The notes under the pieces are model-generated. The model saw only the letters and a program-made list of their open reading frames with translations, did not search any database and was not told the origin of the DNA. This document shows positions 207 through 34,557 of a DNA stretch of 34,608 bases, in pieces; the stretch's first letter is position 1, and every line of letters begins with the position of its first letter. Made by a program: the position numbers and the translations under genes. This stretch comes from a virus: positions 1 through 34,608 of the IMG/VR virus record IMGVR_UViG_3300047320_000115; one strand, written 5' to 3'.

Positions 207-263
207 GTTTTGTATGGTGCCGGCACCAGGAGTCGAACCCGGGACCTACTGATTACAAGTCAG
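207..263. repeat. attL: attL, left copy of the 57-bp att core
   Basis: These 57 bp are identical to 34474-34530. The identity ends abruptly on both sides: 206 against 34473, and 264 (g) against 34531 (t). It covers the 3' part of tRNA-Thr, from CCA to the anticodon stem, so strand exchange occurs in or near the anticodon loop, as is usual for tyrosine integrases that use tRNA genes. The copy here retains the host's original tRNA 3' end. Confidence 0.93.
215..263 (-). pseudogene. 3' fragment of tRNA-Thr left by integration
   Basis: On the minus strand this holds the tRNA-Thr anticodon arm, variable loop, T arm, acceptor 3' strand and CCA, but no D arm or 5' acceptor strand. After 263 the sequence is phage. 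It is the half of the target gene displaced by integration and cannot give a functional tRNA. Confidence 0.9.
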
Positions 264-428
264 GTGATTTTGGCTTTAATTTCAATAGGTTATCTAGATT
301 CTTGTTACGTGTGGTCTGCTCTTTCGGCCAATCTTTGTTAGGACGTGAAAGCTTTATTACGCGTATGAATCCGAGCATTGATAACCAGAGAAGGCCATTT
401 CGCGCATCAAAATTCATTAGGTATTGAC

Positions 429-1331
429 TTACCCTGCAGAGTCTGAATCTCCTGATAGGGAAAGGTAGTCATTCAGCGTATAACGAATGCTCGATTTAAT
501 GGAAAGTATCGAGGTTTCAGCTATGTTTTGTCCTGTTATACCTGCCCGAGAAATCGTAAGTCCTTGACGTTTCGCAGCTTCAGCACGTGTAATCGTCTCA
601 CCAAGGACTTTGATAGCCACCTTGTCTTCAAATAACGCCTTTTTTAGATCGATGACGATCTGATCAGGATTTTCGTCCTCGTCTGTTACCAGTAGGATTT
701 CTAAAAAATACGGTGAAGGCATCAAGCCGAGATTACCCGTCCACTCTTCTTCGCTTGCAGAGCTGATATTGAGATAGATACCGTAGAGCTTTGTGCTCCT
801 TAGCAATTTACTATCGAGTACGTCTTGAATTCGGCTTTCTTTCAATATTGTATTGAAGTCGTCAGGCAACGTTACCCGAGTGTAGCTGCGAGCTATCCAA
901 CCGGCGAAGTTATCTAGCCATTGGGTATTTGTCCAATCGTGGGTGTCCCTGCTTGAGTCTACAACCTCGTAATCTGGAGACCCGAGACTTGCCAATTGCG
1001 CACGATTCAACCAAGTGCGTTTTTGGATATCCACTTCGAAGTAGACTGTCTCACTGTTACCTATTGCCTCCAAATGAAGCAGCCGCGGATTATTTCCTCT
1101 GGAAAATGACTTATCTAGTTTTTCAACTTTTCGAGCTGCTATCAATTCTACGACTGGGATTTTACAAAAGTCGGGATTGTACAAGTTACAAGTCTGAGAA
1201 GCGACGATCCACCAACCATCCCCCGAGTCGTCAGAGCTGTGGCTCTGTAATCTCTTTTCAGAAATTACAGAACCTTGCCACCAGCCTGTGCTCTTGATTA
1301 CGGTTGCTAAATCTATGTCAATGTTAGCCAA
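429..1331 (-). CDS. Unknown protein, third gene of the TIGR04255/HTH accessory operon
   Basis: The 300-residue product is not recognised. Visible features are a WWQGSVISEK segment near the N-terminus, then WWIVASQTCNLYNP and PVVELIAARKV. That arrangement (a hydrophobic strand, S-Q-x-C, then an acidic V-E-L-I strand) recalls a group of uncharacterised bacterial proteins with a conserved S-Q/H-D-C-D motif, but I cannot name a family. No membrane segment or signal peptide is seen. The start is a TTG at 1331 that overlaps the stop of the upstream gene by 8 bases, and there is no nearby ATG, so it is probably translated by coupling. It is the last gene before attL. Codon use is less GC-rich than in the structural genes, as expected for accessory cargo. 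Confidence 0.75.
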   Translation of the reverse strand: MANIDIDLATVIKSTGWWQGSVISEKRLQSHSSDDSGDGWWIVASQTCNLYNPDFCKIPVVELIAARKVEKLDKSFSRGNNPRLLHLEAIGNSETVYFEVDIQKRTWLNRAQLASLGSPDYEVVDSSRDTHDWTNTQWLDNFAGWIARSYTRVTLPDDFNTILKESRIQDVLDSKLLRSTKLYGIYLNISSASEEEWTGNLGLMPSPYFLEILLVTDEDENPDQIVIDLKKALFEDKVAIKVLGETITRAEAAKRQGLTISRAGITGQNIAETSILSIKSSIRYTLNDYLSLSGDSDSAG

Positions 1332-2070
1332 GATCTGCTACTCGATCGATGTCTGAAGTATGAGCATTGCCGAGGTATGTTTTATTCTTAGGTTTTTCTT
1401 GAGCTCCTAGACGAGGTGCAAGCTCATCTAATTTTAGTGAAGCTGCTGCGACTTTCTGCTCGTCGCCCAATTCATCATCAGCAATGACGTCCATAAACGA
1501 CTTTCCATTTATTGGCGTCAGCCAAACGCCTTTCAGGCGCTTGAGATTGTTTCTATCATTGCTGGAAGCAATAACAGACGCCATTATCTCCAGTCGCTTA
1601 CTGTTGGCGTTTCTCGGTGCGGTTCCGTCCAGCCAATCGTAAACCGACTTTCTCGTAACACCAAAAAACTGAGAAAGCTGAGTGATCGACAGGCCAAGTT
1701 CAGACTGCAAAGATTCAAGCTGCGTCTTAAAAGTTATTTCTGCGATTTTTTCCTTTTCGATACTTATATTCTTTACAAGCTTAATGACGTTGCTGTCTAA
1801 GTTAACCGACTCCTTTCTATCTATAGTCAATACAAGGCGCGGTGGTTCTTTAACGTAGCCAGTTAGCCCCCTAGGGATATTCTGGTCAAGTAACTCGCCC
1901 ATGAATGATTGTATAGATGCATACTTCTGAAGTAGTCGTCCCAATCCTCTCTGTTCGCTCATTCTAATTTTCATAGAAGACGCTGAGCTAGAAAATGTAC
2001 GGCCTGTACTTGCAAGGCAAGAAGGCGCCGGGATTTGATTTGCTACAAAAGTATCTGCGTCGCAAAGCAT
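1324..2070 (-). CDS. Helix-turn-helix protein, middle gene of the accessory operon
   Basis: A 248-residue protein with an XRE/Cro-like helix-turn-helix at about residues 119-163: the recognition region reads LSITQLSQFFGVTRKSVYDW, followed by LDGTAPR. The first 110 residues and the last 80 match nothing I know. The start is the ATG at 2070. Its A is the last base of the upstream stop codon (TAATG), and an AAAGGAG ribosome site lies 8 bases before it. A longer frame from 2088 exists but has no such site. One-base coupling to the TIGR04255 gene implies that the two products are made together. It could be an autoregulator of the operon or a DNA-binding subunit of a complex. Confidence 0.85.
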   Translation of the reverse strand: MLCDADTFVANQIPAPSCLASTGRTFSSSASSMKIRMSEQRGLGRLLQKYASIQSFMGELLDQNIPRGLTGYVKEPPRLVLTIDRKESVNLDSNVIKLVKNISIEKEKIAEITFKTQLESLQSELGLSITQLSQFFGVTRKSVYDWLDGTAPRNANSKRLEIMASVIASSNDRNNLKRLKGVWLTPINGKSFMDVIADDELGDEQKVAAASLKLDELAPRLGAQEKPKNKTYLGNAHTSDIDRVADLG

Positions 2071-2873
2071 TAGGATTCTCCTTTCCAAACCTTAAACGCA
2101 TGGTCACTAAAAACTTCTTCATGCCTAAAGAAGTTGTTGGCGACATTGTGAAGCTTTCGCAACTCTTTCGTAATATCTGTATCAGAAAGTTTTTCAGCGC
2201 TTTTGAATATGCTTACTGCATCCATGTCGATCAGGAACTCTTGGTCTTTCAATTGTTCCAGTTTTAATGGGTTTTCAATTCCGTTGAATATTGCTAATAC
2301 GGGTATCGCATCTTGCGGTAATGGTATCGTTCCAGGCATGTCCAGAACACTTACTCTAATCTTATGAGTCTCGCACGAGTACTCACTGAAATAATGCCCG
2401 CCGGTTGTTGCATATCCTTCAATTGAAGGTGCAATAAATTGCGGAGATATATAGTCGGTGCTTTTCTCTTTCGATTTTGGTTTAACATGGTCGATATATC
2501 TAACGCCCATGTTCTGTACGTGCATAAAGTTCATATGCGAAAGAAGAGTTTTGATTACTCTATCTATTTTTTTCTCGAAATCCGCATAGTCGATATAGTT
2601 TGGCGTGAATATAAGCACCTGATCTTTCGTGATTTGAACGCCATAACTTTTGTCCAGTGAGATAAGCATCCACGCTTCACCATTGAACATCGTACCTTGA
2701 GGCGCGCCATCAGGAGCCTCAACCTCTACGTGATGCATGAAGGGCAGAACGTCTCTCAGATCGTTCTGAATCTCGTCGATTCTCTTGCCCAGCAGAGGCC
2801 AAGGCGCGAACCTGACCGATGCGAAAACCAGAGTAAGGGGAGAGTTTTTGAGGACGCCAGTACGGGTGGTCAT
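2070..2873 (-). CDS. TIGR04255-family protein, first gene of the accessory operon
   Basis: I recognise the sporadically distributed TIGR04255 family (about 250-270 residues, function unknown) from three features: an N-terminal KNSPLTLVFASVRFAP strand region, a central MGVRYIDHV motif (family form G-x-R-Y-x-N/D), and a C-terminal LHNVANNFFRHEEVFSDHAF segment with tryptophan just before the end. No catalytic motif or membrane segment is visible. I place the start at the ATG at 2873; a TTG at 2882 is possible, and neither has a strong ribosome site. It is the promoter-proximal gene of a coupled three-gene unit between attL and the integrase. Family members are often found in mobile regions, which fits a role in defence or conflict, but that is inference. 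Confidence 0.85.
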   Translation of the reverse strand: MTTRTGVLKNSPLTLVFASVRFAPWPLLGKRIDEIQNDLRDVLPFMHHVEVEAPDGAPQGTMFNGEAWMLISLDKSYGVQITKDQVLIFTPNYIDYADFEKKIDRVIKTLLSHMNFMHVQNMGVRYIDHVKPKSKEKSTDYISPQFIAPSIEGYATTGGHYFSEYSCETHKIRVSVLDMPGTIPLPQDAIPVLAIFNGIENPLKLEQLKDQEFLIDMDAVSIFKSAEKLSDTDITKELRKLHNVANNFFRHEEVFSDHAFKVWKGES

Positions 2874-2913
2874 TATATGCAATCCGAACCTAGGAAAGGT
2901 GCTTGGTAGTGAA

Positions 2914-2940
2914 ACTATACACCAAAGTAAACATTTTTCC
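2914..2940 (-). promoter_or_regulatory. Possible promoter of the TIGR04255 operon
   Basis: On the minus strand a TATAGT -10 hexamer (2914-2919) lies about 40 bases before the first gene. No convincing -35 is found: the best are TTACGG or TTTACG, 19-20 bases upstream. The 258-bp gap between this operon and the integrase (2874-3131) is AT-rich compared with its surroundings and holds no other gene that I can see. Confidence 0.35.
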
Positions 2941-3131: not shown

Positions 3132-4280
3132 TCAGTCAGAAGCAGGCGCCACTGTAGGAATGCTTAGGTCATAGATGTCCATCATTTTGGGGTCACGGTG
3201 ACCGCTTGCTTCCTGCTTTTCAGCTCGGGTACCGCTCGTGTCTGTAATTCCGCGTCGCTTCAAATCATGCAGTGCAAAACGATCTTCAGCATCGATGATG
3301 CCGTCAGATATTACTAACGTGATAAAGCGTTGCCAGGCTGTGTCCAGACTAGATTTACGAAGCGGTCCTCCATGGCTAGCCACAATGATGAAACGCTTCG
3401 ATGGAGACATCGGTATCGCCGTTTTCCGCCGTTCCCAGATTTTAGCGCGTATTGCCTTCGCTCGATTCCACACAGCGCGCAGTCGTGGCGTCCAACGTAC
3501 AATGTTGTCCCTGCTACCCTTGCGCCGGTTGGTCAAAATCCCTTCTTCCAGCTCGTTCGCGTCCGATAGTGTCACGACTTCGATGCCGCGAAGTCGGCAC
3601 AGGTAGGCCAATTCCATCACGCTGGCCAGGTACTCAGGGCAACCACCAGGTTCGTTGCGTGCCAGGCGTCCACGTGCTGTTGCCCGATCGATTAAGACGT
3701 CCATAACGTTCAACCGTGGCAACCGGCGTTGCTTCCGTTCAATAGGCGCCTCGATGCCTAGGGCCGGGTTGGCTTCAAGGAATCCTCTATTGCGTCCCCA
3801 CTGCAGTACACGGCGTAGATACCGCAGAGCATGTGCCGCTTTAGAGGGTGTACCCTCATCGGCGATCCGATCGACAATGCGTTGCACCAGGGCGGAGCTG
3901 AATTTCTTTACGGCCAGATCGCCGAGCGGTTTGCCCAATTTGGTGGGAATACCCAGCAGAACATCGCGTGAGTAGCAGTAGTCATCGTGGGTTTTGGGCG
4001 CGAGTTTTTTGTAACGGTCGCTCAGATGGAACTGCTCGCACACGTGGCGGAGTGTTCCTCGGTCGACGTTGGACGCCTCTTCCATGATTCGATGAAGCTC
4101 TGCCAGCGACACATCTGCGGGCGCCACATTTTGACGGCGCTGCTTCCCGGTCTCGTCCCTATGTAGTGTGTACCAGACACCACTGTTGCGATGGTCGAAG
4201 TAAATGGCCGCCGGTAGGGCGGCCTGATCGACATGGGCAGGGATATGTGGATTGTGCTTACGCTTTCTCGCTCGCCTCAT
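3132..4280 (-). CDS. int: Tyrosine-type site-specific recombinase (phage integrase)
   Basis: A 382-residue integrase that recombines attP with the tRNA-Thr target. The N-terminal arm-binding part is about residues 1-70, the core-binding SAM-like domain about 73-175, and the catalytic domain about 190-375. Visible catalytic residues are Arg231 (CRLRGIE), His338 (HDLKRRG), His361 (SGHRD) and the nucleophile Tyr370 (MDIYDLS). The position usually held by the second arginine (HxxR) is Lys341. I recall the same HDLK form in other phage integrases, so it need not be inactivating. The start overlaps the DUF4224 gene by 4 bases (ATGA). It is the last gene of the early lytic operon rather than being paired with the repressor as in P2. 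Confidence 0.95.
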   Translation of the reverse strand: MRRARKRKHNPHIPAHVDQAALPAAIYFDHRNSGVWYTLHRDETGKQRRQNVAPADVSLAELHRIMEEASNVDRGTLRHVCEQFHLSDRYKKLAPKTHDDYCYSRDVLLGIPTKLGKPLGDLAVKKFSSALVQRIVDRIADEGTPSKAAHALRYLRRVLQWGRNRGFLEANPALGIEAPIERKQRRLPRLNVMDVLIDRATARGRLARNEPGGCPEYLASVMELAYLCRLRGIEVVTLSDANELEEGILTNRRKGSRDNIVRWTPRLRAVWNRAKAIRAKIWERRKTAIPMSPSKRFIIVASHGGPLRKSSLDTAWQRFITLVISDGIIDAEDRFALHDLKRRGITDTSGTRAEKQEASGHRDPKMMDIYDLSIPTVAPASD

Positions 4281-32455: not shown

Positions 32456-33391
32456 TCAAAATGTTGATCTGTGATTGACCTTCCGAGATGGTGAGAATTC
32501 GACCAAAGAAAGGAAGTCATCGAACAGTGTTGCTGCTTTGTTGAGGTGCCCTATTAATAGAGCGACCTCACCTGCTGGATCGCGTGGTCGCAGCTTCTCG
32601 CGATGTGCTATGTCCAAGTGATTGAATTGAGATTTGAACAGATCGTCACCGTCATCATCTTTCTGAATCGGGTGCAGGTGGAGACTGTGAATAACGAGGT
32701 TGCGCCGCTGAAGAAGGAACGGTAACCCGTCTTCTGTTTTGCCACCAGTTTGGAATTTTCGCAGTCGTGACCAGCAACCGCTTTCCCGTATTTGGTCATT
32801 CATCGGCACCACGTTGGCGTGGATCCGCTCCATAACCGAGTGGAAGCCGTTATGGTCGAACTTGCGAATATTGAAAAAGGTGAAGTCGAGTACCTGGCCG
32901 ACTCGATCCCAAAAAGAAAATAGTCGTATGTACGCGGCTTCAGCATGCTCCCAAAACGCTGATTGGGCGTGCTTAACAAACATCTCAGAGGAATTGGGAT
33001 GCTCAGGCCATGTCATGGCTTCAGGATGTTCAACGAGCATCATAGAGCCGGTCATGAATAAATGGGCACGCAGCACAGACTTTCTTGCTCGCTTGAACAC
33101 TTCAAACACCTCCCGCATCGAGCTTGCAGGGTAGTCATCAGCGAGGGGAGGCTTTTCGCCTGTACGCAGCAGGTAGAATTCTGGAGGGCCGCCTAAATGC
33201 TCAACCACGCGATCAACGCGATTGTTGAAGTGGCCACCGTCATCTTTGGGCCACAGCTGCGCAAACTGCTCTTGCTGTATCCGCTCGTATTGGGCGAGCA
33301 CAACCATCTCGTTGGCTACGTACGCCACCGCATTGCTGATCACCTCAGCCATTTTTTCATCTGTGATATAGCGATCGTTTTCAGCCGTCAC
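32456..33391 (-). CDS. HEPN-motif protein (Cthe_2314-like), candidate defence gene
   Basis: A 311-residue, largely helical protein. Residues 152-176 (AAYIRLFSFWDRVGQVLDFT) and the C-terminal LLQRRNLVIHSLHLHP, with Arg230-Asn231-x3-His235, fit the R-N-x3-H signature of HEPN domains. The spacing resembles the Cthe_2314 HEPN group. Many HEPN proteins with this motif are RNases used in anti-phage defence or toxin systems; that function here is inference. The start is a GTG at 33391 with a GGGGGAAG ribosome site; the frame upstream to 33451 lacks one. It lies in the phage region next to the att site, where P2 relatives carry superinfection-exclusion genes. Confidence 0.78.
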   Translation of the reverse strand: MTAENDRYITDEKMAEVISNAVAYVANEMVVLAQYERIQQEQFAQLWPKDDGGHFNNRVDRVVEHLGGPPEFYLLRTGEKPPLADDYPASSMREVFEVFKRARKSVLRAHLFMTGSMMLVEHPEAMTWPEHPNSSEMFVKHAQSAFWEHAEAAYIRLFSFWDRVGQVLDFTFFNIRKFDHNGFHSVMERIHANVVPMNDQIRESGCWSRLRKFQTGGKTEDGLPFLLQRRNLVIHSLHLHPIQKDDDGDDLFKSQFNHLDIAHREKLRPRDPAGEVALLIGHLNKAATLFDDFLSLVEFSPSRKVNHRSTF

Positions 33392-33451
33392 GTTCTTCCC
33401 CCCTTGAGTGCGGGAGCATAGCCTGAACGAAAGCGGCTCCGCACGCGGCAA

Positions 33452-33801: not shown

Positions 33802-34380
33802 TTAGGGGCGAGGGCCGCGTATTGTAGGCGTCGGGTTATGAAGGCTTTCCTCCAATCGCTTGCATACATCCACCATCGCGACGGCATCGTCGTACGCGAT
33901 ATCTCTATCCAGCATGTGTACCGCTTCGTTGCGGAGTCTGAATGTCCTCAAAAAAGCGTCGTGTTGCTGCCTATCGATGTGACCGAGGTTGAATGCCTGA
34001 TCCAATTTCTTTCGCGTTTGCAGTAGGTCGAGACCTTCTACCCCCTCACGAGTGAGCACCTCGTTCAAAGCGCTTTCGACCTCCAGCCACGCGGCGATCA
34101 TCCCCGCTCTGGGAGAAACGGCAGCAATTTGGAGGGGAACCGAAATTTCGATACGGGGCTTTGGAGGGTTCGCTTCCGGCTCAGAAGGGGCTGGAGGCAA
34201 GTCCTCTTGAAGCGATTGCAACGCTTCAGTCAGATCCACATGAAGTTCGCCGTATTTGAAACTCCGAATTTTTGGGATAAGTCCCAAGATCGGATTCTTC
34301 AGAAGGCAGACGACCACAACAACAGCGGATGGCCAGGCAAGAGCGGAAACCAGAGCCGAAACGAACTGCATCCAATCCAT
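33802..34380 (-). CDS. Membrane-anchored protein with C-terminal HEPN-like R-x4-H motif
   Basis: A 192-residue protein. One N-terminal membrane segment lies at about 8-26 (ALVSALAWPSAVVVVVCLL), then LIPKIRSFKYGELHVDLTEA, a Pro/Glu linker (60-80) and a helical C-terminal domain (90-180). In the latter TFRLRNEAVHMLDRD carries Arg150-Asn151-x3-His155, the R-N-x3-H arrangement seen in HEPN/DUF4145-type domains. The start at 34380 has a GGAG ribosome site; the longer frame to 34467 reads into the att region. It is the first gene inside attR, on the same strand as tRNA-Thr and directly behind its terminator. A membrane-tethered RNase or sensor in phage exclusion is an inference. Confidence 0.78.
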   Translation of the reverse strand: MDWMQFVSALVSALAWPSAVVVVVCLLKNPILGLIPKIRSFKYGELHVDLTEALQSLQEDLPPAPSEPEANPPKPRIEISVPLQIAAVSPRAGMIAAWLEVESALNEVLTREGVEGLDLLQTRKKLDQAFNLGHIDRQQHDAFLRTFRLRNEAVHMLDRDIAYDDAVAMVDVCKRLEESLHNPTPTIRGPRP

Positions 34381-34440
34381 ATGAAATGCTCCGCAGCCTT
34401 TATAGATGAGGCTTGTTACGTGGCTTGTTACGTGTAGCGC

Positions 34441-34471
34441 AAAAACAAAGGGCCTGCATCGCTGCAAGCCC
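34441..34471 (-). terminator. Phage-supplied tRNA-Thr terminator
   Basis: Stem GGGCCTGCA (34450-34458) with TGCAAGCCC (34463-34471) around TCGC, followed on the minus strand by TTTGTTTTT. It replaces the host terminator separated at attL. The two terminators differ in sequence although they are adjacent to identical att cores. Confidence 0.75.
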
Positions 34472-34473
34472 TT

Positions 34474-34557
<84 letters not shown>

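Follow-up and report, generated by a model that had tools for sequence, protein, structure and literature searches.

The stretch of DNA analysed here, referred to as the window, is the complete 34,608-nt IMG/VR virus record IMGVR_UViG_3300047320_000115, and all positions are those of this whole stretch. It is a Peduoviridae prophage of the Pseudomonas type. Just inside the att repeat at one of its ends, between the repeat and the integrase gene, lie three genes on the minus strand, here called A, B and C (Table 1). About 160 nt separate the prophage end from the start of the operon. The arrangement had been proposed from the sequence alone, and it was borne out: all three open reading frames are present, with overlaps of 1 and 8 bases. 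The likely start of B is the ATG at 2070, preceded by AAAGGAGA. Read from there, B shares a single base with A (TAATG), and C, read from its TTG at 1331, shares 8 bases with B. Two viral contigs related to the window, with proteins 93–95% and 75% identical to its own, have the same overlaps and also start C with TTG. Where it could be computed, dN/dS was approximately 0.05–0.08 for A, B and C (A, 0.047; B, 0.075), although synonymous sites are nearly or fully saturated when the window is compared with its 75% identical relative. This argues that A, B and C are real genes under purifying selection and not chance coding.

Table 1. Position and main properties of the features described in the window
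Feature	Position	Strand	Remarks
att repeat, operon end (3' part of tRNA-Thr)	207-266		60-nt direct repeat, 98% identical to 34474-34533
Gene C	429-1331	-	300 aa, TTG start
Gene B	1324-2070	-	248 aa from ATG 2070; ORF 1324-2088, 254 aa from TTG
Gene A	2070-2873	-	267 aa from ATG 2873; ORF 2070-2882, 270 aa from TTG 2882
Upstream box AATGTTTACTTTGGTGTATAGTTTC	2911-2935	-	holds -10-like TATAGT; 19-22 nt core unchanged in unrelated contigs
Tyrosine integrase of the prophage (context, outside the system)	3132-4280	-	PHROG integrase 1.4e-35
Cargo gene, other prophage end	32456-33451	-	331 aa; sub-threshold HEPN match (Cthe_2314-like, 1.6e-4)
Protein beside the other att	33802-34467	-	221 aa; weak DUF4145 match (0.041), phrog_18019 (1.8e-7)
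att repeat, other end	34474-34533		inside tRNA-Thr
tRNA-Thr	34482-34557		

The carrier prophage and the att-integrase slot

In its tail module the window shares 70–74% DNA identity with Peduoviridae that infect Pseudomonas (UFJF_PfPro, phi3 and BIBS67). The GC content of the operon is 42–47%, against about 55–65% over most of the phage, so that the lower GC pointed out in the sequence-only reading is real. Between att and integrase UFJF_PfPro carries three small hypothetical genes instead of ABC, and phi3 carries a group II intron maturase (L129:1071-2756). The presence of different genes in the two phages indicates that the slot is a variable cargo space. The reverse transcriptase in the slot of phi3 was considered as a defence RT and ruled out, since its RVT_N, GIIM and HNH domains identify it as the intron maturase. 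Variable anti-phage cargo is carried by P2-like phages (Rousset et al. 2022, PMC9122126), and a P2-related defence hotspot in Vibrionaceae is located between cI and the integrase (PMC9122126).

Other genes of possible interest were seen near the ends of these phages. The 331-aa cargo gene at the other end of the prophage, with its HEPN-like match, may be a second conflict gene, and the 221-aa protein gene lies beside the other att. In a related phage an Abi_2 (AbiD/F-type) gene (L010:7356-8363, plus strand, 1.3e-45) is located just past the att sequence adjoining the ABC operon.

The proteins encoded by A and B

The first gene had been recognised as a member of the TIGR04255 family, and this assignment holds: the NCBIfam model covers residues 11–254 of 270 (5.5e-25) at 88.6 bits, well above its curated cutoff of 30. 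The AlphaFold2 prediction for A (pLDDT 79.6, pTM 0.80) is a duplicated beta-alpha-beta4-alpha fold in which the second repeat is degenerate. All Foldseek matches of A were weak (TM at most 0.34), to AdoMetDC, arginine and creatine kinases and TBP. A link to ToxN (Pfam, 0.067) was dropped because ToxN is absent among the top structure matches.

The helix-turn-helix (HTH) that had been proposed for the second gene is also probable, as a central XRE-like HTH at residues ~130–170 of the larger protein. It is matched by several Pfam HTH models below their cutoffs, by phrog_4779 (1.3e-5) and, when the profile is used, by a CylR2-type HTH (0.009). In an alignment of 41 homologues of B an N-terminal leader precedes the HTH. 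Its TG core is nearly invariant, reading GTGG in most homologues and STGR in the window, and the leader is possibly a docking peptide. A hydrophobic stretch often precedes the leader in the homologues. Weak PADLOC matches of B were to HEC-01B (0.011) and, over the HTH, to mad1 (0.028; 2.1e-5 in one homologue). Membership of HEC-01 or MADS was ruled out, as the homologues of B match other HTH models instead.

C, the candidate effector

C was described from the sequence as an unrecognised protein with a TTG start and an S-Q-x-C motif, and it remains one: no Pfam or NCBIfam family was matched, and the motif is present as S-Q-T-C. The cysteine of this motif (C48) is invariant in 42 homologues. In the homologue alignment E62, R83, W145, Y150 and R152 are likewise invariant.

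The predicted structure of C (pLDDT 81, pTM 0.55) consists of an N-terminal PemK/MazF-like barrel and a C-terminal domain. Among the Foldseek matches in the PDB the compact and consistent group is MazF-mt1 (probability 0.96–0.99, TM to target 0.52–0.60), and E. coli MazF was matched with a probability of 0.82; the E-values to MazF structures, about 0.05–0.12, are not significant. The top match in the BFVD viral library is PemK-like (probability 0.97, E 0.011), making PemK/MazF the most coherent fold matches of C in two structure libraries. Furthermore, the order of motifs in C (W-x-QG, central strand, S-x-x-C, EPxVE) fits a PemK barrel. The structure prediction thus suggests that the N-terminal domain of C likely has a MazF-like fold. 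Homology of C and PemK at the sequence level was not supported: PF02452 (PemK) matched 0 of the 42 members of the C family, a comparison of the C profile with 13 PemK sequences by hhalign was not significant, and neither was the likeness to MazF when the sequence of C was compared with the PDB. The RP motif that precedes the central strand in PemK has no counterpart in C, which makes a MazF-type RNase activity doubtful, and no nuclease motif was recognised in the protein.

ABC is conserved as a unit

C, as the unrecognised member of the operon, was used as the probe. A search of plasmids and phages gave nine records, and in all seven neighbourhoods read a TIGR04255 gene, the middle gene and C were found in this order. 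These plasmid and phage loci are from Meiothermus, Pseudomonas putida, P. luteola, Gloeocapsa, an Acinetobacter plasmid, an Acinetobacter phage and Mesorhizobium. An alignment of diverse C proteins had no conserved stretch suited to searching, whereas a three-sequence alignment worked. Scanning 84,980 species genomes for C with three dissimilar sequences of the protein returned 46 loci. A and B models lie directly upstream of C and on the same strand in 44 of them. One of the two exceptions is at a contig edge (L050), and in the other (L030) an IS replaces the upstream part, including the N-terminus of C itself. The homologues of C span Proteobacteria, Cyanobacteria, Deinococcota and others, and the median intergenic gaps are 2 and 9 nt.

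For a count free of this choice of probe, 348 Pseudomonadaceae genomes were searched both with TIGR04255, which was found in 18, and with C, which was found in 10. All ten C genes have a TIGR04255 gene at a distance of no more than about 2 kb, and the seven loci that were read are all A-B-C; by these counts C implies A, whereas A also occurs without C. A C relative is encoded in only 2 of 50,697 phage records, and no homologues of A or B were detected in phage records at the thresholds used; homologues reside mostly in bacterial chromosomes and plasmids. The sequence-only reading would have been refuted if homologues of the second and third genes never co-occurred with TIGR04255 or if the genes were known phage regulators. 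Neither was the case: across several phyla, and on chromosomes, plasmids and phages alike, homologues of B and C are almost always found beside TIGR04255, and no match above threshold was to a phage regulatory family. A, B and C are one conserved, tightly coupled evolutionary unit.

In Rugamonas sp. A1-17 (L026:4747-5991) a natural fusion joins A in frame to the half of B that holds the HTH; the B leader is lacking.

At five loci (L043, L051, L052, L053 and L058) C is truncated or frameshifted and A and B are intact, although several of the broken copies come from draft MAGs and some may be assembly errors. At a further locus (L057) both A and C are damaged. Damage to A or B beside an intact C was not found at any locus, the A-B fusion excepted. 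Since the search selected for C, a sampling bias would have worked in the opposite direction. The pattern of broken copies fits a reading of C as a costly component that A and B would keep in check.

A conserved box upstream of A

A stretch of approximately 75 nt upstream of A is almost the same in the window and in the two related viral contigs, whereas the remaining intergenic region is scrambled. The 22-mer TGTTTACTTTGGTGTATAGTTT from this region has three exact stretches in 2.9 million viral contigs, all upstream of ABC operons, and its first 19 bases have five, again all five upstream of ABC. Chromosomal copies were found as well, one exact (L146) and one with two mismatches (L144). In the box-bearing pairs that were compared the proteins are 35–60% identical and the flanks cannot be aligned, and the integrase of the window is absent from the unrelated box-bearing contigs. 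The box is missing from more distant ABC operons. A palindromic or inverted-repeat operator upstream of A was also considered and rejected, the candidates being no better than those in shuffled DNA. Judged by its sequence and position the box is a probable promoter or regulator site of the operon, with TGTTTACTTTGGTGTATAGTT as the candidate target of B. Consistent with the speculation that B reads the box, the recognition-helix region of B is VTRKxVYDW within the box-bearing clade and mostly VSRQxxYNW elsewhere.

Neighbourhoods rich in defence genes

The flanks (within about 3 kb) of 29 genome loci contain 148 proteins. At a threshold of 1e-10 these matched 130 PADLOC models, compared with 7 for 148 control proteins taken from 20 randomly chosen regions, most of them in the same genomes. 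It is models and not proteins that are counted here, and several models can fall on one protein; the comparison covers the genome loci and not the phage of the window. The matches include ThsA and ThsB of Thoeris, type I, II and III methyltransferases, MzaE, capP and DISARM and Druantia methylases. Pfam adds AIPR, ABC-3C CTD10, integrases and TniB/TniQ.

In PADLOC-DB 2.0 (2023) neither A nor C has a match and B has weak HTH-type matches only. TIGR04255 is mentioned nowhere in the text of the published open-access papers searched, and ABC is described neither there nor in PADLOC.

A second class of TIGR04255 operons

Several TIGR04255 loci without C have the same layout with other partners (L132, L133, L135, L136, L137 and L141). 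In this second class A is followed by a protein of 170–210 aa with a GWDGxxG-like motif and then by a protein of 139–166 aa; neither partner was matched by Pfam. From this small sample the gene order suggests that TIGR04255 may be a platform with exchangeable partners. At another locus (L131:3508-4989) B is missing, and the gene directly behind TIGR04255 encodes a short C-like protein of 184 aa (QGDII...LTQDCDLAQ).

A broader speculation places TIGR04255 proteins at the centre of a broad, undescribed family of three-gene immune systems, as the hub that senses or licenses, with interchangeable effectors. One class would join them to an HTH protein and an effector of MazF fold and another to a GWDGxxG protein and one of ~145 aa, the box belonging to the ABC class. 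We regard this as tentative, with the odds somewhat against it.

Possible function

Very probably ABC is a hitherto undescribed system of three parts that serves defence or the control of a toxin. Our preferred reading, to which we give a probability of about one half, is that it is a mobile three-component anti-phage cargo, acting by abortive infection or in a toxin-antitoxin-like manner, in which C would be the effector and A and B sensor and regulator. C, with its predicted PemK/MazF-like first domain, would stop growth or attack nucleic acid or the translation or replication machinery. The HTH protein B would act at the conserved box as repressor of the operon, and B and A together would keep C inactive. 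A, with its predicted duplicated beta-alpha-beta4-alpha (TBP/AdoMetDC-like) sandwich, would act as sensor or co-inhibitor and set C free on entry of a competing phage. The defence role itself is one that we infer from comparative sequence evidence.

Many ABC copies are located on plasmids and phages, and their neighbours include integrases, TniB/TniQ and VapBC or RES genes. Together with the HTH gene in the operon and the MazF-like fold of C, this is what would be expected of a toxin-antitoxin addiction module that keeps a prophage, plasmid or island, with anti-phage activity incidental or absent. Many copies are chromosomal, however, restriction, Thoeris and other defence genes are strongly enriched beside the operon, and its three proteins of about 190–300 aa do not resemble a small two-gene module, so that we consider pure addiction unlikely, if the strongest of the competing explanations.

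Slightly less likely still is a defence system without a toxin role for C: A would bind a modified nucleotide or nucleic acid of foreign origin, B would recruit A, and C would act directly on the invader. The resemblance of the fold of A to TBP, among others, would suit such a role, as would the methyltransferases that are frequent neighbours and the invariant polar set of C's own (C48, E62, R83, Y150 and R152). The likeness to TBP is weak, however, and common to AdoMetDC and arginine kinase, no nuclease motif is recognised in C, and the preferential loss of C is as expected of a costly effector.

That ABC is phage housekeeping, comprising lysogeny or lysis-decision regulators of a P2-like phage, is very improbable despite the adjoining integrase and the HTH in B, given the low GC of the operon, the other genes in the slot of two related phages that lack ABC and the location of most homologues in bacterial chromosomes and plasmids with so few C relatives in phage records. 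The view taken in the sequence-only reading, that the operon is cargo and not housekeeping, is supported by the contents of the slot in UFJF_PfPro and phi3 and by the defence-enriched neighbourhoods elsewhere.

If the anti-phage reading is right, prophage-borne immunity would gain a probable new three-component system. TIGR04255, a name without a function that is attached to many bacterial proteins, gains a testable role as the first member of conserved three-gene operons, based on the defence neighbourhoods, the candidate effector and the 20-nt control box, and the second class suggests a modular platform.

Comparison with known systems

The TIGR04255 (sporadTIGR04255) family, of which A is a member, has no assigned function, and its available description includes neither the constant association with B and C nor the second class of three-gene operon. 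PemK, MazF and CcdB type II toxins resemble ABC in the barrel predicted for N-terminal C, the HTH partner gene and the operon on a mobile element, whereas C lacks detectable sequence homology to them and the RP motif, and has an extra C-terminal domain in an operon of three long genes. The likeness to HEC-01 and mads_1 of PADLOC consists of the weak matches of B to HEC-01B and mad1, but this similarity is at the level of the HTH or due to chance, and the partner genes of these systems are absent. HipBST (PMC10627512) and PD-lambda-2 and others (PMC9519451) share with ABC a three-gene operon, an HTH component, a prophage or defence-island location and a probable toxic effector, although their protein families are unrelated to A, B and C. 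Finally, the hotspots of P2-like phages (PMC9122126) are likewise variable cargo space in a P2-like phage, whereas the slot described here is located between att and integrase in a phi3-like Pseudomonas phage and carries a different cargo system.
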